Positions 1 to 27,404 of a stretch of 64,000 bases of DNA are shown here, piece by piece. Both the position numbers and the translations under genes were made by a program. The notes under the pieces were generated by a model. The model had not been told where the DNA came from, did no database searches, and saw nothing but the letters and a program-made list of their open reading frames with translations. Within the stretch, counting starts at the first letter, position 1. Each line of letters opens with the position of its first letter. This stretch comes from Sphingopyxis sp. QXT-31 (GTDB lineage: Bacteria; Pseudomonadota; Alphaproteobacteria; Sphingomonadales; Sphingomonadaceae): the NCBI RefSeq assembly GCF_001984035.1, contig NZ_CP019449.1, positions 2,232,001 through 2,296,000 on the forward strand. The letters are read 5' to 3'.

Positions 1-907
1 CCATTGTCCTTGACGTCGAATTCGGTGAGCAGCAGCCGGTAACCCATGCCGGTGACCGCGTCGCAAAAGGCGCGCCACTCCTTGAGGTCATAGGGGCCGA
101 TGCCCGTCTTGCGGTCGATCGTGCGCATTTCGATGTGCGACTGGATGCCGAGCGCGTCGCACGGCACCCCGCGCTTGCGGAACCCCTCGAGCAGGCGCAG
201 CACGCCGGCGCGGTGGTTCGCATGGCCGGGTTCCCAGCTCATATAGTCGTTATAAACGAGCTCGGCGTCGGGCAATTCGGTCCGCGCGGTGTGAAAGGCG
301 AGATCGACGACCGCCTCGTGGCTGCCCATCGCCTTCGACATCGACGTATCGACGAAGGCGCCGGTCTTGTCGTCGAACAGTTCATTGACGACATCATAGC
401 TGTGGATGACGCCGCGATAGCGCCGCGTCACGGTCTCGATATGGCTGGTGATCAGCCGCGCCGCCACGGTCGCGGGGCGCGCTCCATAGTAGTAATTATT
501 GACCCACTCGGGCAGCCATTTCGGGCGGTGCCAGAGCAGGGTGTGGCCGCGGATATCGAGGCCCTTCGATTTGGCATAGCGGACGATCGCGTCGAAGGCG
601 GCGAAATTATATTGGTCGGGGCCGGGGCGGATCGCCTGCCACTTCATCTCATTCTCGGCGACGACGAGTCCGCATTCGCGCTCGACTATGGTGCGATAGT
701 CGGGATTGCCGATCGAGCCGCTGTCCGATCCTTCGGCGCCATAGGCGATTGCCGAACCGAAGCGCAGCCCCTTGCCCTGCGCGATGGCGTGCAGGCCCTC
801 GTCCGGAGGCGGCGGCGAGGCAGCCGACCCGGCGCCGCCCGCGCAAGCGGCCAGCGATAGGGCCGAGAGGCCGGCGAGCGCCTCGCGCCGGCTGAGCGTG
901 GTATCGA

Positions 908-911
<4 letters not shown>
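1..911 (-). CDS. GH10 endo-1,4-beta-xylanase, lipoprotein-like (3' end cut off by window edge)
   Basis: Cleaves internal beta-1,4 bonds of xylan. Translating the minus strand from the ATG at 911 gives about 303 residues before the window edge. It begins with a short twin-arginine-like n-region (SRRE) and a lipobox-like LAAC, so the protein is probably lipid-anchored. GH10 landmarks are present: ENEMKW, GHTLLWH, the acid/base Glu in DVVNE, YNDY, and the nucleophile Glu in LLTEFDV. About 70 C-terminal residues should lie beyond base 1. The ATG overlaps the TGA of the upstream GH3 gene (ATGA), so the two are probably translationally coupled in one operon behind the palindrome at 3361-3376. This reading frame was worked out by eye because the partial ORF has no stop in the window. 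Confidence 0.88.
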
Positions 912-3313
<2,402 letters not shown>

Positions 3314-3360: not shown

Positions 3361-3376
3361 ATGGTAGCGCTACCAT
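3361..3376. promoter_or_regulatory. Perfect 16-bp palindromic operator, copy 1
   Basis: The sequence ATGGTAGCGCTACCAT is identical to its own reverse complement. It lies 48 bases upstream of the GH3 start and about 30 bases upstream of the favoured GH67 start, between two divergent units. The same core recurs at 14707-14725 and 27391-27404, always in a promoter region of this locus. LacI-family regulators bind palindromes with a central CG, and similar motifs are known upstream of xylose-induced genes in Caulobacter. The likely ligand-responsive regulator is the LacI protein encoded at 5623. Confidence 0.8.
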
Positions 3377-5622: not shown

Positions 5623-6723
5623 ATGAGCGAAAAGAGCGCTACCATGCCCCGCCAGGGCCGCCGCCAGGGCAAGGCCCCGACCATTTCCGACGTCGCCGCC
5701 GCCGCGGGCTGTTCGCCGATGACGGTGAGCCGCGTGATCAATGGCGATTCCAACGTGCGGGCGGCGACGCGCCAACAGGTGATGGAGGCGATCGCTGCGC
5801 TCCGCTATATGCCGAACCGCGCCGCGCGCAGCTTGGCCGGCGGCGAGCAGTTGCGCATCGCGCTCCTCTTCGACAATCCCTCGGCATCCTATCTCAGCGA
5901 ATTCCTGATGGGCGCGCTCGAAGAAGCGACGCGGAGCGATATCCACCTGATCGTGCAGAGCTGCCTCGACGTCGCCGAGGCTCAAGCGCTGATGCGCAAC
6001 CTGGCGCAGGGCGGGATCAAAGGCTTCATCCTGCCGCCGCCGCTATGCGACGACCAGAGCGTGCTCGACCTGGTCAGCGAGCTCGATGCCATCGCCATCG
6101 CGGTGGGACCCGGCAAGGCGACGGGGTCGCACGGTGCGGTGATGATCGACGATTTCCAGGCCGCTTACGACATGACCCGGCATATCATCGACTTGGGCCA
6201 CGAACGCATCGGCTTCATCATCGGCAATCCCGAACAGGTTGCCAGCGGCCGGCGGCTGAACGGCTATCGCGCCGCGATGGCCGACGCCGGACTCCCCGTC
6301 CTGGACGAATTGATCGTGCAGGGGCGTTTCAGCTATCGGTCGGGGATGGATGGCGCAGAGCGACTGCTCGCCGTCGATCCCCGACCGACCGCGATTTTTG
6401 CGTCGAACGACGATATGGCCGCGGCGACCGTGGCGGTCGCGCATCGCCGCCACCTCGACGTCCCCAACGATATCACTGTCTGCGGTTTCGACGATACCGC
6501 GATGGCGAGCACCATCTGGCCCGAGCTGACGACGATCCGCCAGCCGATCCGCGAGATGACCGCCTGGGCGGTGTCGGCGATCGCGACGATCATGCGCGCG
6601 CGCAAGGCCGGCGAGCATGCGCAGGAGCAGCAGATGACGATGCCCTATTCGCTGATCCGCCGCGAATCCGACGCCGCGCCCAGCCTCGCCACGCGGCGGC
6701 CGAAGGGGGTCGAGCGGCGGTGA
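5623..6723 (+). CDS. LacI-family transcriptional regulator, probable xylose/xylan regulator
   Basis: DNA-binding repressor of 366 residues. The N-terminal helix-turn-helix is typical of LacI (TISDVAAAAGCSPMTVSRVING, residues about 18-39), followed by the hinge helix (YMPNRAARSLAGG) and a periplasmic-binding-protein-like sensor domain (about 70-340). Its position between GH67 and xylD, and the repeated palindrome in three promoters nearby, make it the obvious candidate regulator of the whole locus. The effector (xylose, xylonate or 2-keto-3-deoxyxylonate) cannot be read from sequence. A second in-frame ATG (5644) is an alternative start. A near-operator sequence covers the first codons. Confidence 0.92.
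   Translation: MSEKSATMPRQGRRQGKAPTISDVAAAAGCSPMTVSRVINGDSNVRAATRQQVMEAIAALRYMPNRAARSLAGGEQLRIALLFDNPSASYLSEFLMGALEEATRSDIHLIVQSCLDVAEAQALMRNLAQGGIKGFILPPPLCDDQSVLDLVSELDAIAIAVGPGKATGSHGAVMIDDFQAAYDMTRHIIDLGHERIGFIIGNPEQVASGRRLNGYRAAMADAGLPVLDELIVQGRFSYRSGMDGAERLLAVDPRPTAIFASNDDMAAATVAVAHRRHLDVPNDITVCGFDDTAMASTIWPELTTIRQPIREMTAWAVSAIATIMRARKAGEHAQEQQMTMPYSLIRRESDAAPSLATRRPKGVERR
5630..5645. promoter_or_regulatory. Imperfect operator-like sequence over the 5' end of lacI
   Basis: AAAAGAGCGCTACCAT matches the 16-bp palindrome at 3361 in 12 of 16 positions. The right half is complete and the left arm is degenerate. It spans codons 3-8 of the regulator gene, so it could be a weak autoregulatory or roadblock site. 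It could equally be a coincidence. Confidence 0.25.
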
Positions 6724-14706: not shown

Positions 14707-14725
14707 GTGATAGCGCTACCATCAC
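14707..14725. promoter_or_regulatory. Palindromic operator, copy 2
   Basis: GTGATAGCGCTACCATCAC shares the TAGCGCTA core and the right arm of the other copies, with a near-palindromic frame (one mismatched pair within the arms). It sits between xylX (minus) and GH43 (plus), so one site could serve both divergent operons. Confidence 0.75.
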
Positions 14726-14798
14726 GCTCTAGGGGGTCGTGTCAAGGTTGGCGATCAGAAAATCCGTCGCCGGGCGGGGCCGCAGCCTCACCGGACGA

Positions 14799-16511
14799 AT
14801 GGAGGGGAGAGGCGCGTTGCGGGGTTGGTGCTATATTGCCTGGGCGGCTTGGACTCTGGCGGCGACGCCCGCCGCGGCCCAATCGGACGTGCCGCCCGTC
14901 GCAAGCTTTGACTATGTCGCCTATTCGGGCACGCCCGATGCCGAATCGGCGGTCGCCGGACCCGGCGATTTCGCCAATCCGGTGCTGCCCGGTTTCCAGC
15001 CCGATCCCTCGATCGTTCGCGTCGGCGACGACTATTATCTGGTCAATTCGACCTTCAGCTGGTTCCCCGGCCTGCCGGTCTATCACAGCCGCGACCTTGT
15101 CCACTGGCGCCAGATCGGCAACGCCATCGACCGCCCCAGCCAGCTGACGATCGGCAAGGTCGGCGTCACGCGCGGACTGTTCGCGCCGACGATCAGCTAC
15201 GAGGGCGGGCGCTTCTATATCGTCAACACCTGCATCGACTGCGGCGGCAATTTCATCCTCACCGCCGACGATCCCGCCGGACCCTGGTCCGATCCGCACT
15301 GGCTCGACTTCGGCGGCATCGACCCGTCGCTGTTCGTCGATGATGATGGCAAAGCGTGGATCGCCTACAATGACGCGCCGCCGGGGCCGCCCGAATATGA
15401 CGGGCACCGCGCGCTGTGGCTGCAGCAGATCGACCTGGCCGCGATGAAGATGGCGCCGACGCGCACCTTGCTCGTCGACAAGGGCGTGCACGCTGCCGAC
15501 AAGCCGGTGTGGGCCGAGGGACCGCATATCTACAAGGTCGGGCGCCATTATTATCTGACCGCCGCCGAGGGCGGCACCGCCGACCAGCACAGCCAGACCA
15601 TCTACCGCGCCGAGGCGGTCACCGGCCCCTATCGACCCGGCCCGACCAATCCGATCCTGACCCAGCGCGACTTGCCCGAAGATCGGCCCTGGCCGGTGCA
15701 GGCGACGGGCCACGCCGACTTCGTCCAGATCGCCGACGGCAGCTGGTGGGCGGTGTTTCTCGCGACGCGGCCCTATGCGGGGCAGCAGACCAATTTGGGG
15801 CGCGAGACCTTCCTGTTGCCGGTGCAATGGAAGGACGGCTGGCCGCTGATCCTGCCGTCCGGAACGGCGATCGCGCCGACCGGCAGGCGCCCGGCCCTGC
15901 CCGCCTTCGCGGGTGACACGCTGGGCCAATGGCGCGACGACTTCGACGATCCGCGCCTGGCGCTCGACTGGATGATGCTCCGCACCCCGCAGGGTCGCGC
16001 CTGGTGGAGCCTGTCAAGCAGCAAGGGGGCGCTGCAGCTGACCGCCCGCCCCGTCGCCGCAGGGTCGCTCGACCAGCCGAGTTTCGTCGGCAAGCGGCTG
16101 CGCCATCACGACGCGGTGTTTGAAGCCCGCGTCACCTTTGCGCCCACCGCGACCGGCGACCACGCCGGGCTGCTCGCGCTCACCGACGAGAATCATTTTC
16201 TCTTCTTCGGCCGCGAGCGGCTGGCGGGCGGCGACGCGATCGTGCTGCGGCGCCGCGGCGCGGCGACGGAACCCGCCGAGGGTGTGGTCGTGAAGCAGGC
16301 TACGCTCGGCGCTAGGCCAGCCGCCGCGATCGATTTGCAAATCCGCCTGAACCGTGACAAGGCCGCGCTGCAATGGCGCGCGGCCGGGGCCACGGATTGG
16401 CAGACGCTGGCCGCCGATGTCGACGCGTCGGTGCTCGCCACCGTCGGCGCCGGGCTGTTCACCGGCGCGGTCATCGGCCCGTACGCAGCGCGCACGGACG
16501 CCCGGCCTTGA
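14799..16511 (+). CDS. GH43 beta-xylosidase/alpha-L-arabinofuranosidase, secreted
   Basis: Inverting five-bladed propeller glycosidase acting on xylo- or arabinoxylo-oligosaccharides. The three GH43 acids are visible: base D69 (GFQPDPSIV), D175 (GGIDPSLFVDDDG) and acid E240 (WAEGPHIYK). A C-terminal beta-sandwich (about 385-570, with HHDAVFEARVTF) is the accessory domain of the large GH43 subfamilies. A signal peptide ends near ATPAAAQ. The start is ambiguous. ATG 14799 is used here, a GTG at 14739 is upstream, and a TTG at 14817 has the best ribosome site (GGAGGGGAGAG). It is the first gene of a five-gene unit, and its stop overlaps the next start (TTGA). Confidence 0.9.
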   Translation: MEGRGALRGWCYIAWAAWTLAATPAAAQSDVPPVASFDYVAYSGTPDAESAVAGPGDFANPVLPGFQPDPSIVRVGDDYYLVNSTFSWFPGLPVYHSRDLVHWRQIGNAIDRPSQLTIGKVGVTRGLFAPTISYEGGRFYIVNTCIDCGGNFILTADDPAGPWSDPHWLDFGGIDPSLFVDDDGKAWIAYNDAPPGPPEYDGHRALWLQQIDLAAMKMAPTRTLLVDKGVHAADKPVWAEGPHIYKVGRHYYLTAAEGGTADQHSQTIYRAEAVTGPYRPGPTNPILTQRDLPEDRPWPVQATGHADFVQIADGSWWAVFLATRPYAGQQTNLGRETFLLPVQWKDGWPLILPSGTAIAPTGRRPALPAFAGDTLGQWRDDFDDPRLALDWMMLRTPQGRAWWSLSSSKGALQLTARPVAAGSLDQPSFVGKRLRHHDAVFEARVTFAPTATGDHAGLLALTDENHFLFFGRERLAGGDAIVLRRRGAATEPAEGVVVKQATLGARPAAAIDLQIRLNRDKAALQWRAAGATDWQTLAADVDASVLATVGAGLFTGAVIGPYAARTDARP

Positions 16512-18019
16512 CCCGGCCCGAGCCCGTCCGCGTGGTCATATTGGGCGGCGGCACCGCCGGCTGGATGACCGCCGCCGCGCTCGCCAAATTGCTGCCCGGA
16601 CAGGCCGACATCCATCTCGTCGAATCCGAAGAGATCGGCATCGTCGGGGTCGGCGAGGCGACGCTGCCCCACCTGCGCGAGTTCATCCGCCGCTTGGGGC
16701 TGGACGAGATGGACTTCATGCGCAAAACGCGCGCGACGTTCAAACTCGGCATCGATTTCGTCGACTTCGGCGCGATCGGCGAGGGTTATATCCATCCCTT
16801 CGGCGCCTATGGCACCGACATCGCCGGGGTCGGCTTTCACCATTATTGGCTGCGGATGAAGGCCGCGGGCCGTGTCCCGCCGATCTGCGACTTCTCGCTC
16901 CCGATCGTCGCTTCGCGCGCGAGGCGCTTTGCGCCGATCCCCGCAGGCGGCGACTTCCTCGATAGCAGCTACAGCTATGCCTATCAGTTCGACGCGACGC
17001 GCATGGCGCCGATGCTGCGCGCCTTTGCCGAGGCGCATGGCGTGCGGCGCAGCGAGGGCAAGGTGGTCGGAGTCGAGCGCGATGCGGCAAGCGGCGATAT
17101 CGCGGCGCTGCGCACCGACCGCGGCGACGTGATCGCCGGCGATCTGTTTGTCGACTGCTCGGGCTTTCGCGCGCTGCTGATCGGCGAGACGCTGGGCTCG
17201 CCGTGGGAGGATTGGTCGCAGTGGCTGCCGTGCGACCGCGCCGCGGCCTTGCCGTGCACCGCGCCCGACGGGCCGATCGAGCCCTATACCCGCGCGACCG
17301 CGATGCCCGCCGGCTGGCGCTGGCGCATCCCGCTCCAGCACCGCGTCGGCAACGGCTATGTCTATTCGAGCGCGCATCTGTCGGACGACGAAGCCTGCGG
17401 CGCGATCCTGGGCGCGATCGAGGGCGAGCCGCTCGCCGATCCGCGCGTGCTGCGCTTTCGCGCCGGGCGGCGGACCAAAAGCTGGGACCGCAATGTCGTC
17501 GCGATCGGCCTCGCCAGCGGTTTCCTCGAACCGCTCGAATCGACGAGCATCCACCTCGTGCAACAGGCGGTGACGCGGCTGGTCGAACTGTTCCCGCAGC
17601 GCCGTATCGACACGTCCGACCGCGACACCTTCAACGCGCTCGTCGATCGCGAATATGACCGCATCCGCGACTTCTTGATCCTGCACTATCATGCCACGCG
17701 GCGCGACGATTCGGATTTCTGGAACCATGTCCGCACGATGGCGGTGCCCGAAACGCTGCAGCGCAAGATGGACCTTTGGCGGACGAGCGGGCGCGTTGAA
17801 CTCTATACGCAGGGCCTGTTTCTCGAGGCGAGCTGGGTCGCGGTCTATCTGGGCCAGGGGGTCGTGCCTTTATCCTATGACCAGCGCGCCGACACGCCGG
17901 CGCCGGACCGCCTCGCCAGGTCGCTGACCGAACTCGATCAGGCGATCCGCCAGCGGGTCGCGGCCTGGCCCGACCATGGCGACTATCTGCGCCAGTCCGG
18001 CGCGTGGGAAGCGGCATGA
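16508..18019 (+). CDS. Flavin-dependent (tryptophan) halogenase family protein 1
   Basis: 503-residue FADH2-dependent halogenase homologue. The FAD-binding GGGTAGWM is at residues about 12-19. The catalytic Lys79 (in ATFKLG) falls at the same number as in PrnA, and the WxWxIP box (GWRWRIPLQ) and Glu344 (in LESTSIHL) are all present, so it should be catalytically competent if supplied with reduced flavin. The start is a TTG overlapping the GH43 stop (TTGA). A natural substrate is not known for relatives found beside TonB receptors and glycosidases; free tryptophan is only one possibility. No flavin reductase gene is near. Confidence 0.88.
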   Translation: MTRPEPVRVVILGGGTAGWMTAAALAKLLPGQADIHLVESEEIGIVGVGEATLPHLREFIRRLGLDEMDFMRKTRATFKLGIDFVDFGAIGEGYIHPFGAYGTDIAGVGFHHYWLRMKAAGRVPPICDFSLPIVASRARRFAPIPAGGDFLDSSYSYAYQFDATRMAPMLRAFAEAHGVRRSEGKVVGVERDAASGDIAALRTDRGDVIAGDLFVDCSGFRALLIGETLGSPWEDWSQWLPCDRAAALPCTAPDGPIEPYTRATAMPAGWRWRIPLQHRVGNGYVYSSAHLSDDEACGAILGAIEGEPLADPRVLRFRAGRRTKSWDRNVVAIGLASGFLEPLESTSIHLVQQAVTRLVELFPQRRIDTSDRDTFNALVDREYDRIRDFLILHYHATRRDDSDFWNHVRTMAVPETLQRKMDLWRTSGRVELYTQGLFLEASWVAVYLGQGVVPLSYDQRADTPAPDRLARSLTELDQAIRQRVAAWPDHGDYLRQSGAWEAA

Positions 18020-19290
18020 GCGGAGCGGCGGGCGCGACGCGGTCGGTGCTGGTCGTCGGCGACGGCGTCGTCGGGCTGGCCGCCGCGATTGCGCTCCGCC
18101 GCGCGCTGCCGGGCGCCGCGATCCGGCTGATGCAGTTGCCGGGCGACGAGGACAGCTGGCTCAACCGGCTGGGCGCGGCGAGCCCGATCATCCATCGCTT
18201 CCACCGGCAGATCGGGCTCGACCCCCGGCTCTTCACTCGGCGGACCAACGCCGATCGGGCGTATCTGCGCCACTGTGTCCGCGACGGGCAGCCGGCAGTT
18301 CGCGAAGCGAGCACCGCGGCGATCCCCTTTGTCGAGGGTGTGCCGCTGCATCACATCTGGCTGCGCCACCGCCTCGAGGACGGCGAAGGCGCGACCGATT
18401 TCGCCGCGATGCTGCTCGCGCTGCGCGAAGCGCGCGGCGACGAGGGCGGCTTCGGCCCGCGCTTCGACATCGCCGCCTATCAAAGCCTGCTCGGCGAGAT
18501 GGCGGCGGCGCTCGATATCGGCATCACGGCGGCGGCCGACGTCACGGTCACGGCGGACAATGGCGCGGTCGCGGGTATTTCGGCCGATGGCGGCGCATTG
18601 CTGCGCGCGGATCTCTATGTGGATGCCGCCGGTCCGCGCTCGCGCCTGCTCACCGCGCTCGGAGTCGGATGGACCGACTGGTCGGACTGGCTGCCGAAGC
18701 TGTCGCTTTCGATATCACCGGACGGCGGCGTCGCGCAGGGCGACGAGCGGCTGACCTACGAAGGCGGCGCGATCGTCTGGCAGACCCGCGTTTGGCGCGC
18801 CGCGCTCGCCCCCGATGCAACCGCCCGCGGCCCCGGCTGCCTCGGCCGCTGTTGGCTGGGCAACGCCGTCGCCATCGGCGAAGCCGCCGTGCGCGCGCCG
18901 ACCGCCGATGGCGTCGGCCTCGGCGTCGCGCTCGAGGATATCTTGCGGCTGATCGCGCTGCTGCCACGTCCCGACGGTGGCGGGCAAGAGCAGCGCGAAT
19001 ATGACCGCCGCGCTGGGATCGCCTATCGCGCGCTCGCCGACTGGAGCGGCCTCGGCACAGCGCCGGGCGCCGACGGCCCGCCAGGCCTTGCCGAAATAGG
19101 CGCGGCCTTTGCCGCGCGGGGCCGTGTGGCGATCGACGAACTCAGCCCGATCCAGCCCGGCGAGTGGCTTGCACGGCTGATGACGCTTGGCCCGCCGCCG
19201 CGCCGCGTCGATCCGACCGCATGGGCGCTGCCCGACGCCGTCGTCCGTTCCACCATCGCGCGCGCCGCGCCGGCGCGCGTGCCGACCTGA
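18016..19290 (+). CDS. Halogenase-like flavoprotein lacking the catalytic residues
   Basis: 424-residue relative of the preceding halogenase, starting at an ATG that overlaps its stop (ATGA). It keeps an FAD-type fold start (VLVVGDGVVGLAAA), a DWSDWLPKLSLS block aligning with the DWSQWLPCDRAAA of its neighbour, and LYVDAAGPRSRLL for LFVDCSGFRALL. By eye the catalytic Lys region (ATFKLG) is replaced by ADRAYL. The WxWxIP box becomes VWQTRV, and the ESTSIHL Glu region becomes TADGVGL. It is about 80 residues shorter. It is therefore probably a non-halogenating paralogue: a partner subunit, or an enzyme with another activity. Confidence 0.75.
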   Translation: MSGAAGATRSVLVVGDGVVGLAAAIALRRALPGAAIRLMQLPGDEDSWLNRLGAASPIIHRFHRQIGLDPRLFTRRTNADRAYLRHCVRDGQPAVREASTAAIPFVEGVPLHHIWLRHRLEDGEGATDFAAMLLALREARGDEGGFGPRFDIAAYQSLLGEMAAALDIGITAAADVTVTADNGAVAGISADGGALLRADLYVDAAGPRSRLLTALGVGWTDWSDWLPKLSLSISPDGGVAQGDERLTYEGGAIVWQTRVWRAALAPDATARGPGCLGRCWLGNAVAIGEAAVRAPTADGVGLGVALEDILRLIALLPRPDGGGQEQREYDRRAGIAYRALADWSGLGTAPGADGPPGLAEIGAAFAARGRVAIDELSPIQPGEWLARLMTLGPPPRRVDPTAWALPDAVVRSTIARAAPARVPT

Positions 19291-19310
19291 ATCGCCAAGA
19301 GAGGATGAGG

Positions 19311-21830
19311 ATGCGCAAAAGTCTATGGCTGATGCCGCTGGTGCTGGGCGCCTGCGCCGCACAGGGCGGCGGACCCGCAGCGTCGGCGGCGTCCGCCGAC
19401 GCGGGCAAGCTCCTACTCGCGCCGGTCCCGCCCGAGGCGACGGCGAATCCCGCGCTCTGGCCCAAACCGCACTGGCCGCAGCCGCGCGATGCCGCGACCG
19501 AAGCGCGCATCGCCGCGCTGATCGCGCGAATGACCGTGGAGGAAAAGGTCGGCCAGATCGTGCAGGCCGACATCGCCAGCGTCACGCCGGAGGAGGCCAA
19601 GGCCTACCATCTCGGATCGATCCTCAACGGCGGCAACAGCGGCCCCGGCAACGACGATCTGGCGCCGCCCGAAAAATGGCTCGGGCTCGCCGACGCTTTT
19701 TATGCGGCGTCGATCGATACGTCGGGCGGCGGCGTCGGTATCCCGATCATCTGGGGCACCGATGCGGTGCATGGCCATAGCAACATCGTCGGAGCGACGA
19801 TTTTTCCGCACAATGTCGGCCTCGGCGCCGCGCGCGATCCCGACCTGATCGAGCGGATCGCTCGCGCGACGGCGCTCGAAATTCGCACGACGGGCATGGA
19901 ATGGACCTTTGCCCCGACCGTCACCGTGCCGCAGGATTATCGCTGGGGCCGCGCCTATGAGGGCTATTCGTCCGACCCGGCGCTCGTCAGCGAATATGTC
20001 GGCCGCATGGTGCGGGGACTCCAAGGTCCGGCGACCGGCAAGGATTTGCTCAAAGGCCCCTATGTCATCGCCTCGACCAAACATTACCTCGCCGACGGCG
20101 GCACCGTCGACGGCCGCGATCAGGGCGATGCGCGGATCAGCGAAGAGCAGTTGCGCGACATCCACGGCGCGCCTTACGTTCCCGCGCTCGAACAGGGCGT
20201 CGCAACGATCATGGTCAGCTTTTCGGGCTGGAACGGGGTCAAGAACACCGGCAACAAGTCGCTGCTGACCGATCTGCTCAAGGACCATATGGGGTTCGAC
20301 GGCTTCCTGGTCAGCGACTGGAACGCGCACGGCCAGGTCGCAGGGTGCACCAACGCCTCCTGCCCGCAGACGATCAACGCCGGGCTCGACATGGTGATGG
20401 CGCCCGACAGCTGGAAGGCGATGTGGACCTCGCTCGTAGCGCAGGCGAAGGACGGCACGGTGCCGATGGCGCGGATCGACGATGCCGTCGCGCGCATCCT
20501 GCGCGTCAAGATGCGGCTCGGGCTGTTCGAGGCAGGCAAGCCGTCGAGCCGGCCCTATGCTGGGCAATGGGATTTGCTAGGCGCGCCCGCGCATCGCGCC
20601 ATCGCGCGCGAAGCGGTGCGCAAGTCGCTCGTGCTGCTGAAGGATCAAGGCGGAGTGTTGCCGATCAAGCCAGGCAGCCACATTCTCGTCGCCGGCGATG
20701 CCGCCGACGATATCGCCCGCCAGTCGGGCGGGTGGACGCTGACCTGGCAGGGCACCGATGTCACCAACGCCCACTTTCCGGGCGCCACCTCGATCTGGAA
20801 GGGGCTGGACGACGCCGTAAGGGCAGCCGGCGGCAGCGCCGAATTGGCGCCGGGCGGCGCCTACCGCAAGAAGCCCGACGCCGCGATCGTGGTGTTCGGT
20901 GAAACCCCCTATGCCGAATTCCAGGGCGACCTGAAGACGCTCCAACTCCGCCCCGAGCTTCGCGCGCCGTTCGCGACGATGCAGAAGTTGAAGGCGGCGG
21001 GCATCCCGGTGATCGCGGTGATGATCAGCGGGCGGCCGCTGTTCATGAACCCGGAGCTCAACGTCGCCGATGCCTTCGTCGCCGCCTGGCTGCCGGGCTC
21101 GGAAGGCGGCGGCGTCGCCGATGTCCTGGTCGCCGGCAAGGACGGCAAGCCGCGGTTCGATTTCACCGGCAAGCTGCCGACCGCCTGGCCCGCCACCGCG
21201 CGCGCCGACGGCCCGGTCCTGTTTCCCTTCGGCTATGGGCTGGGCCTGAACGACCGCGCGACATGGACGACGCTGTCCGAAGAACCCGGCGTGGAAGCCA
21301 GCGACAGCGGCAATGTCTGGTTCGCGCGCGGCGTTCCCGCCGCGTCCTGGTCGCTGCGCGTGCTCGACGGCGCGGGCGACACGACGCGGATCACCTCGGT
21401 CCCCGCCGCGGCGCTCGGCGGGCGCGTGACGGTCACCGCGACCGACCATGTCGTCCAAGAGGGTGCGCGCCAATTCGCCATCGCCGGCGGCCCGGCGACG
21501 GTCGAAGTGTCGGGCCACGCCCCGGTCGATCTGTCGCGCGAGAGCAACGGCGACCTGTTGCTGGTCGCGACGATGCGCGTCGACCAGCCGCCGAAGCAGC
21601 CGGCAACGCTGGCCGTCAATCGCACCCCCATACCCTTTGCGGCATTTTCGCTCGCAACCGCGGGGCAATGGCGCAGCTACGGCGTGCCGCTGAAATGCTT
21701 TGCTGCTAAGGGGGCCGACATGACCAGGGTCGAGACGCCTTTTCGCCTGACGACCGACGGCGCGGCACGCTTCAGCCTTGCCGAGGTGCGGTTGGCGTCC
21801 GTGGCGGATGTCATCATCCCCTGCCCATGA
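19311..21830 (+). CDS. GH3 exo-beta-glycosidase with ExoP-type C-terminal domain, lipoprotein
   Basis: 839-residue GH3 enzyme. A lipoprotein signal (LPLVLGAC type lipobox, residues about 8-16) suggests outer-membrane anchoring. It has RWGRAYEGYSSDP, KHYLADGGT, the nucleophile Asp336 in LVSDWNAHG, PFGYGLGL, and an extra C-terminal beta-sandwich (about 680-835) as in ExoP-like glucan/xylan exohydrolases. The ATG at 19311 is preferred to 19305 because GAGG then sits six bases upstream. The exact linkage (beta-1,4-glucan, xylan or mixed) is not readable. It is fourth in the GH43-halogenase-paralogue-GH3-cupin unit. Confidence 0.9.
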   Translation: MRKSLWLMPLVLGACAAQGGGPAASAASADAGKLLLAPVPPEATANPALWPKPHWPQPRDAATEARIAALIARMTVEEKVGQIVQADIASVTPEEAKAYHLGSILNGGNSGPGNDDLAPPEKWLGLADAFYAASIDTSGGGVGIPIIWGTDAVHGHSNIVGATIFPHNVGLGAARDPDLIERIARATALEIRTTGMEWTFAPTVTVPQDYRWGRAYEGYSSDPALVSEYVGRMVRGLQGPATGKDLLKGPYVIASTKHYLADGGTVDGRDQGDARISEEQLRDIHGAPYVPALEQGVATIMVSFSGWNGVKNTGNKSLLTDLLKDHMGFDGFLVSDWNAHGQVAGCTNASCPQTINAGLDMVMAPDSWKAMWTSLVAQAKDGTVPMARIDDAVARILRVKMRLGLFEAGKPSSRPYAGQWDLLGAPAHRAIAREAVRKSLVLLKDQGGVLPIKPGSHILVAGDAADDIARQSGGWTLTWQGTDVTNAHFPGATSIWKGLDDAVRAAGGSAELAPGGAYRKKPDAAIVVFGETPYAEFQGDLKTLQLRPELRAPFATMQKLKAAGIPVIAVMISGRPLFMNPELNVADAFVAAWLPGSEGGGVADVLVAGKDGKPRFDFTGKLPTAWPATARADGPVLFPFGYGLGLNDRATWTTLSEEPGVEASDSGNVWFARGVPAASWSLRVLDGAGDTTRITSVPAAALGGRVTVTATDHVVQEGARQFAIAGGPATVEVSGHAPVDLSRESNGDLLLVATMRVDQPPKQPATLAVNRTPIPFAAFSLATAGQWRSYGVPLKCFAAKGADMTRVETPFRLTTDGAARFSLAEVRLASVADVIIPCP

Positions 21831-22855
21831 AGGACTGGCTCACCCGCGCCGCGCCGATTGCCGAGATCGACGCGCGCGACGCCAGCGCAGCCCAGGCGGC
21901 GCTGGCGGCGGCGAACGGACGCCCGCTGGTGTTGCGAGGGCTGACCGCGGACTGGCCGTTGGTCGCGGCGGGAAAAGAGGGCATCGCGGCGCTGGCAGAG
22001 CGGCTGGCCGGCTACGGCCCCGGCGCGCCTATGAATGTCTTCACCGCGCCGCCGGGGACGCACGGCCATTATTTCTATCGCGGCGACATGACCGGTTTCA
22101 ACTTCCGCACCGAGCAGGCGACGATGCCCGAACTGCTCGACCGGCTGCTGTGGGCGAGCACGCTGGCCGATCCGCCCAGCTTTTACGCGGGATCGACCCC
22201 GGCCGCGGATTTCATGCCCGGCTTCCTTGCCGATCACCCCTTGCCGGTCGCGGCCCCGGGCGCAATCCCGCGGCTGTGGACCGGCAATGCCTCGCACATC
22301 GCGACCCATTTCGATCAGTCGGACAATATCGCGGTCGTCGTCGCGGGCCTCCGCCGCTTTGTGCTGTTTCCGCCCGAACAGGTCGCGAACCTCTATCTCG
22401 GCCCGCTCAACAAGACCCCGGCGGGGCAGCCGGTGAGCATGGTCGCGGTCGACGATCCCGACCTCGCGCGTTACCCGCGCTTCGCCGAGGCGATGGCCGC
22501 GGCAGCGGTCGCGACGCTCGATCCGGGCGATGCGATCTTCATTCCCTCGCTCTGGTGGCACAACATCCGCGCCACCGGCCCGCTCAACCTGATGGTCAAT
22601 TATTGGTGCGATGCCGGCGCCGGCAGTTCGCCCTTACTCGCCTTTGCGCACAGCTTGCTGGCGATCCGCGATCTGCCCGCTGCCGAACGCGCCGCATGGC
22701 GGACATGGTTCGACCATTTCATCTTCGGCGACGAGGGCGCGGCCGCCGCCGATCATCTGCCGCCACATGCCCAGGGCGTGCAGGGCGCAGCGTCGCCCGA
22801 GCGCGATGAGACGATCCGCAATTTCGTGCTGCGCGGGCTGATGGGGCCGCGCTAG
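21827..22855 (+). CDS. Cupin_8 (JmjC-like) domain protein
   Basis: 342-residue protein with a double-stranded beta-helix of the cupin_8/JmjC-like type. The Fe(II)-binding facial triad appears as H161 and D163 (THFDQSDN) and H245 (SLWWHNI), so it may be a 2-oxoglutarate-dependent hydroxylase. Such genes are often found beside flavin-dependent halogenase homologues and TonB receptors in sphingomonads and xanthomonads; their substrate is unknown. The ATG overlaps the GH3 stop (ATGA). The stop codon is shared on both strands with the facing gene (CTAG). Confidence 0.82.
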   Translation: MKDWLTRAAPIAEIDARDASAAQAALAAANGRPLVLRGLTADWPLVAAGKEGIAALAERLAGYGPGAPMNVFTAPPGTHGHYFYRGDMTGFNFRTEQATMPELLDRLLWASTLADPPSFYAGSTPAADFMPGFLADHPLPVAAPGAIPRLWTGNASHIATHFDQSDNIAVVVAGLRRFVLFPPEQVANLYLGPLNKTPAGQPVSMVAVDDPDLARYPRFAEAMAAAAVATLDPGDAIFIPSLWWHNIRATGPLNLMVNYWCDAGAGSSPLLAFAHSLLAIRDLPAAERAAWRTWFDHFIFGDEGAAAADHLPPHAQGVQGAASPERDETIRNFVLRGLMGPR

Positions 22856-24351
22856 CGGCTGACGAGGCGCGCGATATGGTCGGCGTGCTTTGGCATCGCA
22901 CGTGCCTGGGTTTCGAACACCGACGCGATCCGCTCCATCGCCGCGACGATCCGTTCGTCGTCGGTCGCGTCGACCAGCGGGTCATAACCCTCGGGCATGA
23001 TATTCTGCCCCAGCATCACTGCCGCCCAATTGGCGATCCCGAACAGGTCGTGGTCGAAGCGGCGGATACGGCCCTTGGTGCGGAACAGCTCGATCTTCTG
23101 CGCCAGGCTGTCGGGGATCTCCATCGCCGCCATGTCGCGCCAGAAGGGCGTGTCGCTGCGCGCGGTCGCCTTGTAATGCAGCACGATGAAGTCGCGGACA
23201 TATTCATATTGATCGATCATCAGCCGGTTATATTCGTCTCGCTCGGCCGCGCTGAAGCGCATGTCGGGGAACAGCCAGAACAGCTTGTTGATCCCGGTCT
23301 GGATCAGGTGGATGCTCGTCGATTCGAGCGGTTCGATGAACCCGCCCGCGAGGCCGAGCGCGACGACATTGCCGTCCCACAAACGCTCGCGCACCCCCGC
23401 CGTGAAGCGCAGGCCGCGCGGTTCGGCGAGCGGCTCGCTGTCGAGATGGGCGAGCAGGGTGGCGCGCGCTTCCTCTTCGCCGGCATAGGCGCTGGAATAG
23501 ACGATGCCGTTGCCGGTGCGGTGCTGGAGTGGGATGCGCCACTGCCAGCCGAAGCCATGCGCAGTGGCGCGCGTCGCGGGTATGAGCGGATCGACGCGCG
23601 CCGACGGCACCGCGAGCGCGCGATCGCACGGCAGCCAGCGCGACCAGTCGCGATAGCCGACTCCCATCTCTTTGCCGAGCAGCAGGCTGACGAAGCCCGA
23701 GCAGTCGATGAAGAGATCGCCCGCGACGGCGCGCCCGTCGGTGAGGTGCAGCGCCGCGACATGCCCGCTCGCCGGGTCGCGCGACACGCGCTCGATGCGC
23801 CCCTCGATGCGGGTGACGCCCCCGGCCTCGGCGCGGCGGCGCAGATAGGCGGCGTAGAGCGCGGCGTCGAAATGATAGGCGGCCGCCATCTGGTGGAGCG
23901 GCGAGCGCGGGTCGCCGCTCTGCGGCGCATAGCCGCCATGGCGCACCGCGGCGCCGGTGATGAAATAGTCGGTGAAGGGCCGGATGCGCGGATCGTCCCG
24001 ATGCTTGAGCCAGAACTGGTGAAAGGCGATGCCTTCGAAATTGTGGCCGGGGTCGCCGAAGGGGTGGAGATAGCGCTCGCCGAGCGCGCCCCAGTCGACG
24101 AATTCGATCCCCAGCTTGAAGGTGGCGCCGGTTTCGCGCAGGAACTCGGCCTCGTCGATGCCGAGCATCCGGTTGAAGTCGCGGATCGGCGGGATCGTCG
24201 CCTCGCCCACCCCGACGGTGCCGATCGCATCGGACTCCACGAGCAGGATGCGGCGCTGGCCGTCATTGAGGAAACGCGCCGCCGCGGCCGCCGCCATCCA
24301 GCCGGCGGTGCCGCCGCCGACGATCACGACGGTGCGGACCGGATCGATCAC
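22852..24351 (-). CDS. Flavin-dependent (tryptophan) halogenase family protein 2
   Basis: 499-residue halogenase homologue with every hallmark: GGGTAGWM (about 12-19), catalytic Lys79 in ATFKLG, WxWxIP (FGWQWRIPLQ), and Glu343 in LESTSIHL. It is similar to protein 1 but clearly not a recent duplicate. The start is GTG at 24351, overlapping the aldose epimerase stop (GTGA); the longer frame upstream is the shadow of that gene. It is the last gene of the GH5-epimerase-halogenase operon, so expression probably follows operator copy 3. A cytosolic location is likely because no signal peptide is seen. Confidence 0.88.
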   Translation of the reverse strand: MIDPVRTVVIVGGGTAGWMAAAAAARFLNDGQRRILLVESDAIGTVGVGEATIPPIRDFNRMLGIDEAEFLRETGATFKLGIEFVDWGALGERYLHPFGDPGHNFEGIAFHQFWLKHRDDPRIRPFTDYFITGAAVRHGGYAPQSGDPRSPLHQMAAAYHFDAALYAAYLRRRAEAGGVTRIEGRIERVSRDPASGHVAALHLTDGRAVAGDLFIDCSGFVSLLLGKEMGVGYRDWSRWLPCDRALAVPSARVDPLIPATRATAHGFGWQWRIPLQHRTGNGIVYSSAYAGEEEARATLLAHLDSEPLAEPRGLRFTAGVRERLWDGNVVALGLAGGFIEPLESTSIHLIQTGINKLFWLFPDMRFSAAERDEYNRLMIDQYEYVRDFIVLHYKATARSDTPFWRDMAAMEIPDSLAQKIELFRTKGRIRRFDHDLFGIANWAAVMLGQNIMPEGYDPLVDATDDERIVAAMERIASVFETQARAMPKHADHIARLVSR

Positions 24352-25244
24352 CGTGCCGCTTCCCGAGCCCGGGTACCGAAGCGCACCCGCGCTGCGATCG
24401 TCTCGCCCGGCGCGGCGACGGGCATCGCTTGCCCGCGGTCGCCGAGGTTCAGCGCATTGTTGCTGTGCGGCACCGGCTCGAAGCAGAAATAGGCGGCGCC
24501 CGGCGGCGTATAGACCACCGCGCACGGCAGGTCGGAGGTGATCGACAGCGCGAGCCGCCGTCCCTCCCACGCGATCCCGGCCAGCCCGGTCCAGCCGTCA
24601 TACCCATTATCAAGATCGGTCGCGGCTACCGCCAGCCCACCGCGGAAATCCTCGGCGGGCCCCGGGGTGTCGGCGTGCAGCGGAAGCCCGTCGCGCGCCG
24701 AGCCCCAGACCTGCGTCGCCGCAAAGTCCAGATGCGCGCCCGCGGCATCGAAATAAGGATGCATACCGAACGCCAGCGGCACCGCGATATCGGCACCGTT
24801 GGTCGCGGTCATGCGGATGTCGAGGCCGCTGCCGGTCAGTTGGAAATGCTGCTCGGCCACAAAGGGCCAAGGCCAGTCGGCGTCGTTCTCATGGTCGAGG
24901 CGCAGCACCGCGCGGTCGGCCACCGCCTCGACCACGCGCCACGCGCGGCGCCAACCGACGCCGTGGATCGCATGCCGGTCGGGCAGCCCGCTCGGCGGCA
25001 GGCGATATTCGGCGCCGCCCCAGCGGAAATGCCCGCCGCCGATGCGGTTCGAAAAAGGGACGAGCGGGAAGTTCGCCATAGCCAGCGGATTCCAGTCCGG
25101 CCCCGGCGTAACGCCCGATTCATGGAACATCGGCTGCCCGCCCACACGCCACGCCGCGATGGCACCGCCCGCCTCGGGCACCAGTATCAGCCGCGCATCG
25201 CCCGAGGCCAGTGTCAGGGTATCAAGCAGGGTGGTGCAGCTCAT
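24348..25244 (-). CDS. Aldose 1-epimerase family protein (mutarotase)
   Basis: 298-residue GalM-type protein interconverting alpha and beta anomers of sugars. Catalytic His is in GMHPYFD and catalytic Glu in CFEPVPHSNNA. In this setting it probably prepares beta- or alpha-xylopyranose for the dehydrogenase or lactonase of the Weimberg pathway. It starts with an ATG overlapping the GH5 stop (ATGA) and ends overlapping the halogenase start. No signal peptide is visible, so it is probably cytosolic. Confidence 0.88.
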   Translation of the reverse strand: MSCTTLLDTLTLASGDARLILVPEAGGAIAAWRVGGQPMFHESGVTPGPDWNPLAMANFPLVPFSNRIGGGHFRWGGAEYRLPPSGLPDRHAIHGVGWRRAWRVVEAVADRAVLRLDHENDADWPWPFVAEQHFQLTGSGLDIRMTATNGADIAVPLAFGMHPYFDAAGAHLDFAATQVWGSARDGLPLHADTPGPAEDFRGGLAVAATDLDNGYDGWTGLAGIAWEGRRLALSITSDLPCAVVYTPPGAAYFCFEPVPHSNNALNLGDRGQAMPVAAPGETIAARVRFGTRAREAAR

Positions 25245-27343
25245 TTCCCCAGTTCAACCGAAGGCGTGCCTTCGCGCAAGACATAGACCGGACCGATCTC
25301 GAGCGCCTGCTCCGCCCCCGCGGTGTGTAGCGCCAGCTGGCCCTGTCCCGCGGCAAGCGCCCGTGTGGCGGTCGTACCGATCTGGTAGAGCCGCCAGTTC
25401 GGCCCGACGATCAGGATATTGTCGGCAAAGCCATCGTAAGGCGCGCTATTCTGCTGCACCCGGATGGCGAGCTTGCCCTGCCCGTCGGGGGTCGCCGCCG
25501 AGACGGTGCGCGCGAGGACCGCGATGCGCAGCCGGTCGCCCTCGGCGATCGCGCCCTGCAGCGGCACCGAAGCCCCTGCGTCATAGGCATTGGCGCTGGC
25601 GGTGCCGACCGTCAGCAGCGTCGCGACGCGGCCATAGACATTGGTCGTGGTCGCCTTCGCCGTCTGCGCGGTGCCATAGAGCAGCCATTCGCGGTTCGCC
25701 GGATCGTTGAGCAGGTCGCCCTTGCCGACGAGCTGCGGCGGCAATTCGGGATCGGCGGCGGGCGCGGCCGGCGCCGCGGCCTGGCGGATCGTCTTCGCAC
25801 CCTCGACGACGATCACCTGGCCGATCTCGATCGTCTGGCGCGCACCGGCGAGCTGCAGCCCGAGCACCGCCTGTCCCTTGGCGATGTCGCGATCGGCCTG
25901 CGCGGCGACTTCGTAGAGCTGCCACTCGGAGCCGATGGTCAGCGCGGTGTCGCCGAACCCGGCATAAGGCGCGACATTCTGCTGGAAGCGGACGCCGATC
26001 CGCCCCTTACCGTCGGGCGCGTCGGACTTGATCGTGCGCGCCCAGAAGGCGGCGACATAATCGCCCTTGCTGCGCAGTGCGGTGCGGATCGGCACATTGG
26101 CACCGGCGTCATAGGGCGCCGTGCCCAGCGATTGCAGCGCGAACTGCACCGCCGCGCCGCCGCCGGGGATATCGGCGGACCGGACGTTCTTCGCCTTCAT
26201 GATCGCGCCGAAGGTCGCCCAGTCGAGCGCGGACGGATCGTTGATCAGATGGCCGGGCAGCGCGTCGTCGAGCGCCTGCAGTTCGGGGGTCGGCTGCCGT
26301 TCGCCGGCCACAGCGGCTGGCACCGCCGCGGGAGCGGGCGCGGTCGTCGTGTCGGGAAGGCCGATCGCCCCGCGCATCGCGGGCAGCCATTGCTTCTTGT
26401 CGCTGTCGTAAAAGGGGAAGGTGTTGGTGTAAGCCCAGGTGCACATGCCGATGCCCAGCGGCGCGAAGGCCTTGGTCACCGCGGCATGATATTTCACGCG
26501 CTGGTCGAGCGGCGCCGTCGTATGCGCGCCGGTCTCACCCATGAAGGGCAGCAGGCCGGTGCGCGCCGTGTAATCGCGGATCTTCTGCACATCGCGCACC
26601 AGCCGCGCGGCATCGTCGGCGCTGCCATATGTACGGCCGAGCGGCGGCACTGGCTCCACCCAGTCGGCGCCTTGGTGGGTAAATTCGAACGGCTCGTAAT
26701 AATGGAAGGTCGGATAGACGTTGCGATCGTCCGGCAGCGTCAGCGTGGCGAGCGAATCGATCCCGCTCCAGAACTCGCCGCCGATGATCACCGGCCGGTC
26801 GGGATTGGTCGCGCGCACCGCCGCCAGCGCAGGCGACAGCGCTTCAATCAGGTTGGCGTTGGTGAATTTGTCGTGCGGCTCATTCTCCAGTTCGAACCAC
26901 AAGGTCTTGATCGGCTGGTCGGCGAAGGCAACGGCGATCTGCTTCCAGATCCCGGCAAAGCGCGGTGCGCTGCCCAGCGGATCGCTGTGCATCGATTCGA
27001 AATTATGGCTGTCGAGGATGACGTTGAGGCCCGCCGCCTGCGCCGCGCCGACCAGATGCTTCACCCGCGCGAGGAAGACAGGTTCGATCGTGTAGGGCGC
27101 CTCCTTTCCTGCATGACTGTCCCAGCGCACGGGCAAGCGAATGGTCGTGAAGCCGGCTGAAGCGATATTGGCGAAATCGTCGTCGGCAATGCGATGCCCG
27201 CCCCATGCCGTTTCGGTTGGCGGCTCGAGGCTGTTGCCCATGTTGATGCATGTCCCGACGGGCAATCCACGCGGTGCCGCGATGCTGCGTACGGGCACCG
27301 CCATCGACGCCACGACCGCAGCCAGCAAAATTGCCCTTTTCAT
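25241..27343 (-). CDS. GH5 endo-glycanase with two tandem C-terminal carbohydrate-binding-like repeats
   Basis: 700-residue secreted enzyme. A signal peptide (about 1-22) leads into a GH5 TIM barrel (about 28-325) with acid/base E155 (LENEPH) and nucleophile E270 (FMGETGAH). An Ala/Pro linker (about 330-350) follows. The C-terminal half holds two copies of a beta-sandwich module of about 150 residues. Each copy has LxNDP near its start, then YDAGA(N/S)VP, then DGxGxxxxRxQQNxAPYxGF, then WxLYxxxxxA, and ends in (Q/E)xIEIG or LEIG. These look like family 4/9/22-type CBMs, by inference. The barrel could be a cellulase or a glucuronoxylanase-like activity. It is the first gene of its operon, 48 bases below operator copy 3. 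Confidence 0.87.
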   Translation of the reverse strand: MKRAILLAAVVASMAVPVRSIAAPRGLPVGTCINMGNSLEPPTETAWGGHRIADDDFANIASAGFTTIRLPVRWDSHAGKEAPYTIEPVFLARVKHLVGAAQAAGLNVILDSHNFESMHSDPLGSAPRFAGIWKQIAVAFADQPIKTLWFELENEPHDKFTNANLIEALSPALAAVRATNPDRPVIIGGEFWSGIDSLATLTLPDDRNVYPTFHYYEPFEFTHQGADWVEPVPPLGRTYGSADDAARLVRDVQKIRDYTARTGLLPFMGETGAHTTAPLDQRVKYHAAVTKAFAPLGIGMCTWAYTNTFPFYDSDKKQWLPAMRGAIGLPDTTTAPAPAAVPAAVAGERQPTPELQALDDALPGHLINDPSALDWATFGAIMKAKNVRSADIPGGGAAVQFALQSLGTAPYDAGANVPIRTALRSKGDYVAAFWARTIKSDAPDGKGRIGVRFQQNVAPYAGFGDTALTIGSEWQLYEVAAQADRDIAKGQAVLGLQLAGARQTIEIGQVIVVEGAKTIRQAAAPAAPAADPELPPQLVGKGDLLNDPANREWLLYGTAQTAKATTTNVYGRVATLLTVGTASANAYDAGASVPLQGAIAEGDRLRIAVLARTVSAATPDGQGKLAIRVQQNSAPYDGFADNILIVGPNWRLYQIGTTATRALAAGQGQLALHTAGAEQALEIGPVYVLREGTPSVELGK

Positions 27344-27390: not shown

Positions 27391-27404
27391 TGGTAGCGCT
27401 ACCA
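27391..27404. promoter_or_regulatory. Palindromic operator, copy 3
   Basis: TGGTAGCGCTACCA is a perfect 14-bp palindrome with the same core as copies 1 and 2. It is 48 bases upstream of the GH5 start, exactly the distance of copy 1 from its GH3 gene. Its presence ties the GH5-epimerase-halogenase operon to the xylose regulon. Confidence 0.78.

Follow-up and report, generated by a model that had tools for sequence, protein, structure and literature searches.

Halogenase-family genes of a Sphingopyxis xylan region as candidate partners of TonB-dependent receptors

The flavin-dependent halogenases (FDHs) BrvH, from Brevundimonas (PDB 6frl), and Xcc4156 (PDB 6y1w) have open active sites, leave free tryptophan unmodified and accept indole, and a peptide has already been suggested as substrate (PMC7336383). 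They are the nearest solved relatives of the product of hal1, a gene located in the 64,000-nucleotide stretch analysed in this study (the window; G000:C1:2232001-2296000 of the 4.29-Mb Sphingopyxis sp. QXT-31 genome), and like hal1 they have intact halogenase motifs. As in the loci of the window, a second FDH gene adjoins that of BrvH. However, the accessible text of the BrvH and Xcc4156 papers does not mention 'TonB' and describes neither a paralogue lacking the catalytic lysine nor a receptor partner, whereas hal1 is accompanied by such a Lys-less paralogue, by a cupin-type oxygenase gene, by a second halogenase gene (hal2) and by a TonB-dependent receptor (TBDR) gene.

Other FDH-fold flavoproteins act on tryptophan within polypeptides. 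QhpG acts on peptidyl tryptophan in the cytoplasm, and its gene is found together with that of its substrate (PMC7876137); like LodB and GoxB, it resembles the module proposed below in acting in the cytoplasm on the tryptophan of a co-encoded, export-bound protein. QhpG is unlike hal1 and hal2 in that it hydroxylates and is of low similarity, the NCBIfam match reaching 33 bits against a cut-off of 240 bits, and its client is a small amine dehydrogenase subunit and not a receptor. MibH, the lanthipeptide tryptophan halogenase whose structure is among the PDB matches, is likewise an FDH acting on peptidyl tryptophan; it differs by its client, a lanthipeptide, and is 26% identical to Xcc4156 (PMC7336383). 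At the level of whole loci, the carbohydrate-utilization loci containing TBDRs (CUT loci) of Xanthomonas and Caulobacter resemble the window in uniting a TBDR, glycosidases and a regulator, but halogenase, SapC, Pass1 and cupin are absent from the accessible text of the 2007 CUT paper. The halogenase clade is already known; no description of the TBDR-halogenase pairing, the Lys-less partner or the receptor motif was found in the parts of the open-access literature consulted.

We tentatively propose that the halogenases, the paralogue and the cupin form a receptor-partner module that would act on a TBDR precursor before export and would not be xylan enzymes, a reading that we hold to be plausible, if short of probable. 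The initial annotation had described two halogenases, a paralogue and a cupin among glycoside hydrolase (GH) and aldose epimerase genes, and gene calls, Pfam and junction DNA located all of them where it had placed them:

14739..16511, + strand: GH43 beta-xylosidase-type glycosidase (PF04616 and GH43_C2), leading the + operon, operator-like site upstream
16508..18019, + strand: hal1, BrvH-type FDH (PF04820, 609 bits; nearest PDB entry BrvH, 6frl)
18016..19290, + strand: halogenase-fold paralogue, ATGA-coupled to hal1, without Lys79 and Glu344, acid at position 335, AlphaFold2 fold closest to BrvH
19305/19311..21830, + strand: GH3 glycosidase with a lipoprotein-like N-terminus by eye (PF00933, PF01915, Exop_C)
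21827..22855, + strand: cupin_8/JmjC-type Fe(II)-2-oxoglutarate oxygenase, FIH-like (PF13621; H161-x-D163...H245)
22852..24351, - strand: hal2, second intact halogenase, ending the - operon (PF04820, 612 bits; Lys and Glu kept)
24348..25244, - strand: aldose 1-epimerase (PF01263)
25241..27343, - strand: GH5 family glycosidase, leading the - operon (PF00150)
L009:11711-14935, + strand: TBDR A
L009:9939-11441, - strand: FDH A, third halogenase, divergent from TBDR A

FDH A and TBDR A both lie 1.1-6.1 kb upstream of window base 1. A profile search of the genome returned 15 PF04820 matches, one merely a 38-position scrap, together with 6 cupin_8, 2 SapC and 64 PF00593 TBDRs, a further TBDR being found by Plug. 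Caulobacter vibrioides, included as a control for cupin_8 and SapC, matches both profiles and also PF04820; as E. coli too matches PF04820, an FDH in C. vibrioides is only a candidate. Elsewhere in this genome, the FDHs keep company with glycosidases of other families: TBDR-FDH-SapC-cupin-FDH-GH16 with GH3 (L011), TBDR-FDH-paralogue-FDH with GH20, the cupin lying past two opposed genes (L010), TBDR-FDH-paralogue-cupin-GH97 (L012) and TBDR-FDH-GH13-GH13-GH97-FDH (L013); a single FDH stands beside a Na/H exchanger gene (L014). Both paralogue and cupin are included in two of these non-xylan clusters. As for the SapC genes, one (L011:8437-9156) lies within the TBDR-FDH-SapC-cupin-FDH operon, and the other (G000:C1:1058397-1059053) is not near any PF04820 match. 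In other sphingomonads, hal1 relatives at 59-73% identity are flanked by GH2, GH9, GH16 or GH97, and in a survey of hal1 relatives (the best 80 of 194 loci from named genomes, all selected by likeness to hal1) the flanking glycosidases include GH10, GH16, GH97, GH5, GH2 and GH9. Pfam scans of neighbours covered 20 chosen proteins, some of them belonging to irrelevant genes.

The initial annotation had pointed to xylan, or an aromatic bound to it, as the substrate. This claim fell: because FDH modules are also found in GH16/GH3, GH20, GH97 and GH13/GH97 loci, the reading of xylan or ferulate as substrate fails and was rejected. More generally, that the halogenases act on xylan or on feruloylated fragments, or produce a signal specific to xylan, would suit their translational coupling to GH43 and epimerase genes and the common operator-like site (see below), but orthologues and paralogues are also found at loci unrelated to xylan and the enzymes have no signal peptide recognizable by eye, whereas the GH3 has a lipoprotein-like one; we regard it as very improbable. 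The annotation had also asked whether the gene order is conserved, and it is: GH43-halogenase-paralogue-GH3-cupin recurs in full in L067, which is nearly the same organism as the source since its hal1 is 97% identical, and the order up to GH3, with the cupin undetected, recurs in L068, L069 and L078. The hal1 of Sphingopyxis sp. H050 is 97% identical to that of the window.

The recurring partner is mostly a TBDR, whichever sugar is eaten. In the survey, a TBDR was present in the fetched flank of 68 of the 80 loci by BLAST (66 by profile). Outside the family, all 20 FDH loci of a sample hand-picked from 20 of 37 matching genomes (11 families) have a TBDR at no more than 2.1 kb from the FDH. As a control within the family, 20 loci were picked from genomes without the strict receptor motif described below; a TBDR lies within the fetched 19 kb in 16 of them, and in 15 at less than 600 bp from an FDH-family gene.

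FDH-linked receptors often have a loop motif in common, NWGxLSExW. In a tree of the 65 TBDRs of the genome, built with a quick method and SH-aLRT support only, all five FDH-linked receptors fall in one 11-member clade (98%), within which the linked TBDRs A, D and E cluster together (100%) though their glycosidases differ. All three have an NWx6W motif (YNWGVLSEQW in A, YNWANISNTW in D and FNWTPIAAPW in E), which is found in 3 of the 5 FDH-linked TBDRs and in none of the 60 others (Fisher p=2e-4). At the corresponding TBDR A columns 538 and 545, tryptophan occupies 90% of 70 FDH-locus TBDRs and none of the six unlinked members of the clade. Among receptors selected by label, NWx6W is present in 60 of 60 (59 from the survey and TBDR A), and no other of the 301 loop 10-mers is as well conserved, in the set so selected, as the one at TBDR A 536. 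The motif tryptophan is usually preceded by Asn in A-type TBDRs and by Thr in three control TBDRs; the looser form [NT]Wx6W occurs in 12 of the 15 adjacent TBDRs of the control loci (NWx6W in 9, TWx6W in 3). In an AlphaFold2 model of TBDR A (pLDDT 80.7), the motif, whose position was judged solely from the order of the strands and the length of the loops, follows strand 515-533 and starts a 120-residue loop, which is taken as extracellular from its length. Another long loop of TBDR A holds a Cys pair (residues 716 and 730), a possible disulphide, which is present in 89% of the 70 FDH-locus TBDRs and in none of the six unlinked clade members.

A DNA pattern for the strict motif NWGxxSExW was then searched for regardless of FDHs. 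It gave 59 matches in 56 of 397 family genomes, the reversed-pattern control giving 0, and 57 of the 59 lie near an FDH. The 28 matches in the first 199 genomes are, from their coordinates, all within ~6 kb of an FDH; the remaining 31, which were annotated, have an FDH near in 29 cases, that of L214 being just a fragment at the contig end. In 398 genomes of the phylum, the pattern matched nine times outside the family. Two matches are in TBDRs (L241 and L242), each followed by an FDH and a paralogue; the other seven fall outside TBDR genes and were discarded as coincidental or unconnected.

FDHs and TBDRs also vary together. Their distance matrices are correlated (Mantel r=0.50, a value reached in none of 2000 permutations; n=56 pairs, selected for a TBDR at no more than 2.1 kb from the FDH), and TBDR type switches 7 times along the FDH tree against 21.6 times in shuffles, a few labels being doubtful: L104 was labelled F despite the motif in its alignment, L282 is doubtful, L274 and L275 were grouped with F though without its Trp, and L270 and L277 were labelled by hand. 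NWx6W is present in the TBDRs of L010, L012, L104 and L258. These matched distances and the stability of the types show a long partnership, and not its chemistry.

Several observations weigh against the receptor as the object of the module. Six of the 11 TBDRs of the clade have no FDH, and two strict-motif TBDRs stand apart from one, in L222 (no FDH in 19 kb) and in L205 (a 3.5-kb contig). The evidence for a module-specific Trp is strong in A-type TBDRs, but several others lack it at that place: F-like linked TBDRs carry a different loop Trp, mostly before Gly, in 14 of 16, and none in L274 and L275; C-type linked TBDRs have WGG or similar in place of the motif; and the TBDRs of the hal1-type loci L073, L099 and L131 have no motif there. 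The idea that each FDH locus must have the strict motif was rejected on the F, C and L073/L099/L131 types. Trp 303 and 987 of TBDR A are likewise conserved in FDH-locus TBDRs, and the loop Trp may be no more than a sugar-binding residue, and motif and FDH may be inherited together. By profile, 14 of the 80 survey loci have no TBDR, some being short contigs or window-like xylan loci; FDH and paralogue pairs without a TBDR in the fetched flank occur in L089, L113, L118, L122 and L133 of the survey, and the TBDR-less control loci L247, L249, L253 and L265 (19 kb) carry an active FDH and Lys-less paralogue pair. In L113 (11479-17686), a hal1 relative and a paralogue lie beside an RND efflux pump and an outer-membrane factor. 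Finally, the paralogue is found in 6 and the cupin in 2 of the 20 control loci; since both are missing from many TBDR-FDH pairs, neither is essential.

The gene-size layout of L118 and L133 is much like that of L113. The window also holds a TBDR of a different lineage (52238-55177), the nearest FDH-family gene being 27 kb distant.

Two other explanations draw on these observations. FDH and TBDR genes could be jointly inherited and transferred in carbohydrate islands with no functional link, the loop tryptophans being ordinary sugar-binding residues. Related genomes do make up too large a share of the data, nearly all members of one TBDR lineage carry the motif (all 60 label-selected rows) and the six sister TBDRs of the clade lack an FDH; but all 20 loci sampled outside the family have a TBDR, several TBDR types are involved, the 4-bp coupling of hal1 and paralogue is conserved and FDH and TBDR distances match, so that we consider such hitch-hiking quite improbable. 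Alternatively, the substrate would be a small aromatic in the cytoplasm, whether indole, phenol or a compound imported with the oligosaccharide; it would be halogenated during glycan use, the TBDR importing it. Free indole is halogenated in vitro by BrvH-type enzymes, and FDH-paralogue pairs stand away from TBDRs, in L113 by the efflux pump. However, the indole activity of BrvH is low, aromatics would not be expected in every one of the xylan-, GH16-, GH20-, GH97- and GH13-linked loci that FDH modules accompany, and biosynthesis genes were not noticed among the annotated neighbours, where no systematic search was made. This small-aromatic explanation is a real possibility, though a rather unlikely one.

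Turning to the enzymes of the proposed receptor-partner module, both halogenases are catalytically intact by sequence, as previously annotated. hal1 has GGGTAG, K79, WRWRIP and E344; in hal2, Lys and Glu align with K79 and E344 and the WxWxIP motif reads WQWRIP, and both thereby carry the FDH signature (GxGxxG, Lys79, WxWxIP, Glu344); K79, E344 and WxWxIP are retained in all 80 surveyed hal1 relatives. hal1 and hal2 look able to act on tryptophan as halogenases. No signal peptide was seen by eye in hal1, hal2, paralogue or cupin, which start at their domains. In L217, where the module is otherwise complete, the halogenase is in two complementary pieces in different frames (a frameshift or an assembly error).

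The paralogue had been called inactive-looking. This holds in that Lys79 and Glu344 are absent, Ala and Asp standing at the aligned positions of the window paralogue, but it passes over a conserved subfamily with its own acid at position 335. By gene calling, a paralogue directly follows hal1 in 70 of the 80 survey loci, with a 4-bp overlap in 51. Across these 70, position 79 is Arg in 57, Ile in 5, Leu in 3, Ala, His and Gln in 1 each, a gap in 2 and Lys in none; Glu is found at position 344 in 8, never together with Lys79. Position 335, a Leu in all 80 active enzymes, is Asp in 58 and Glu in 10 paralogues (68 of 70 acidic; Glu in the window, Arg in L010). The FAD glycines are mostly retained (47 GxGxxG, 16 GxGxxA, 7 with gaps), and the AlphaFold2 model of the window paralogue (pLDDT 87.2) has BrvH as its best PDB match (TM 0.80 by query). 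A decaying pseudogene was rejected because the gene persists at 70 of 80 loci and its signature, though altered, is consistent, and the paralogue looks like a maintained FAD-fold protein unable to halogenate in the known way. A first paralogue search of 199 genomes, in which few candidates were scored per genome with a divergent query, found only 3, the genome of the window included.

These features bear on a third alternative, in which the FAD enzymes oxygenate the receptor as QhpG does its client, Lys79 and Glu344 being kept for other reasons and the paralogue being the actual hydroxylase. hal1 and hal2 match the QhpG and LodB NCBIfam models, and the window paralogue the UbiH/UbiF hydroxylases, weakly and far under the cut-offs; the acid at 335 of 68 of 70 paralogues may recall Asp260 at the FAD site of QhpG, the positions being compared without alignment. 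Set against this, the halogenase residues are present in 80 of 80 hal1 relatives and the characterised relatives halogenate in vitro, which makes a monooxygenase role improbable.

The cupin was found in the flank of 56 of the 80 survey loci by BLAST (58 by profile). Its best PDB match is FIH (E=5e-16), an asparaginyl hydroxylase, cupin residues 159-265 aligning with residues 183-286 of the FIH chain. With hydroxylases of the FIH/JMJD5 JmjC type it has in common the HxD...H iron triad (H161, D163 and H245, read from the FIH alignment); it differs from FIH in that the sequence match is limited to ~107 core residues. By this likeness, the cupin looks like an FIH-type oxygenase and may act on a protein substrate.

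How the module would be expressed with its receptor is suggested by the layout of the locus. The genes form two operons, GH43-hal1-paralogue-GH3-cupin (+) and GH5-epimerase-hal2 (-), and because cupin and hal2 are convergent a single operon is ruled out. The overlaps of the initial annotation were read in the DNA as TTGA (GH43/hal1), ATGA (hal1/paralogue, GH3/cupin and GH5/epimerase) and GTGA (epimerase/hal2), while a gap of 14-20 bp separates the paralogue stop from the GH3 start; joint translation with the glycosidases and the epimerase, as it had claimed, agrees with the 4-bp overlaps but not across the two convergent operons. Within each operon, the genes are presumably co-transcribed. The statement that no flavin reductase is nearby held for PF01613, whose sole genome match is at 1,413,411, more than 0.8 Mb away, other flavin-reductase families being outside the search. 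Regulatory elements and further genes of the region are the following:

1..911, - strand: GH10 xylanase, partial, extending upstream of the window
908..3313, - strand: GH3 glycosidase, second in the region
3363..3374, strand not assigned: operator-like GGTAGCGCTACC, between this GH3 gene (908-3313, -) and the GH67 gene (3441-5561, +)
3441..5561, + strand: GH67
5623..6723, + strand: LacI-family regulator (PF00356), likely binder of the operator-like sites
14710..14720, + strand: LacI-type operator-like ATAGCGCTACC, preceding GH43-hal1-paralogue-GH3-cupin
27392..27403, strand not assigned: operator-like GGTAGCGCTACC, preceding GH5-epimerase-hal2

The xylan/xylose region further includes genes for a dehydratase, a gluconolactonase-like protein, an SDR and an aldehyde dehydrogenase, and with its TBDR, xylanase, xylosidase, glucuronidase, regulator and one common operator-like site it constitutes a xylan TBDR carbohydrate locus. 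The pattern RTAGCGCTACC gives five matches in the window, that is three distinct sites, against 0.05 expected. Genome-wide there are six distinct sites, five of them inside the xylan cluster: before an MFS gene, between FDH A and TBDR A, between GH3 and GH67, before GH43-hal1 and before GH5-epimerase-hal2. As a control pattern read backwards has 47 matches genome-wide, the evidence is the placement of five of six sites and not their number. The sixth copy (G000:C1:4217201-4217212, L014 ~6201) precedes the Na/H exchanger gene, which is convergent with the lone TBDR-less halogenase. In the survey, a looser form of the operator is intergenic in 40 of the 80 loci (a count made without a chance control), in 16 cases between an aldehyde dehydrogenase gene and the MFS gene preceding hal1, and elsewhere before TBDRs. 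The LacI protein would bind these sites, and the halogenases look like members of the xylan regulon: the common site places hal1 and hal2 in one putative regulon with TBDR A, though it is ~17 kb away. Induction tied to xylan, as first annotated, is thus upheld as a prediction by operator-like sites before both halogenase operons and the xylan genes.

From these elements we envisage the following course. The xylan LacI regulator would induce the module together with TBDR A. As signal peptides were not seen while the TBDR must be exported, halogenases and cupin would meet the receptor only as a precursor, in the cytoplasm and prior to export. There, an active halogenase would halogenate or oxygenate the invariant Trp of the WGxLSxxW segment, at the base of the long loop presumed to be extracellular; the FIH-like cupin may hydroxylate a nearby residue, e.g., the adjacent Asn, and the paralogue may be either a subunit partnering the halogenase or another monooxygenase. 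Once modified, the loop would adjust how glycans are bound or gated. The data establish the gene content, the common operator-like sites, the link to TBDRs in genomes sampled across the phylum, the conserved paralogue and the loop motif; the receptor as substrate, its chemistry and the effect on uptake are all conjectural; receptor modification is the best single account of the data, each point of which rests on association. That sugar TBDRs of many Pseudomonadota are halogenated on a loop Trp by co-regulated BrvH-type halogenases, aided by an FIH-like hydroxylase and a non-halogenating partner, is a broader proposition, which may be true but which we regard as doubtful.

Work on BrvH, Xcc4156 and related enzymes has so far lacked a natural substrate; if true, the receptor reading would supply it, and the pairing with TBDRs, together with the motif in their loop and the Lys-less partner, narrows the substrate question to one named receptor peptide. 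The module would then serve to mature outer-membrane receptors, and halogenation would join the known modifications of outer-membrane proteins. It would also account for a glycan-eating bacterium keeping 14 halogenase-family genes.

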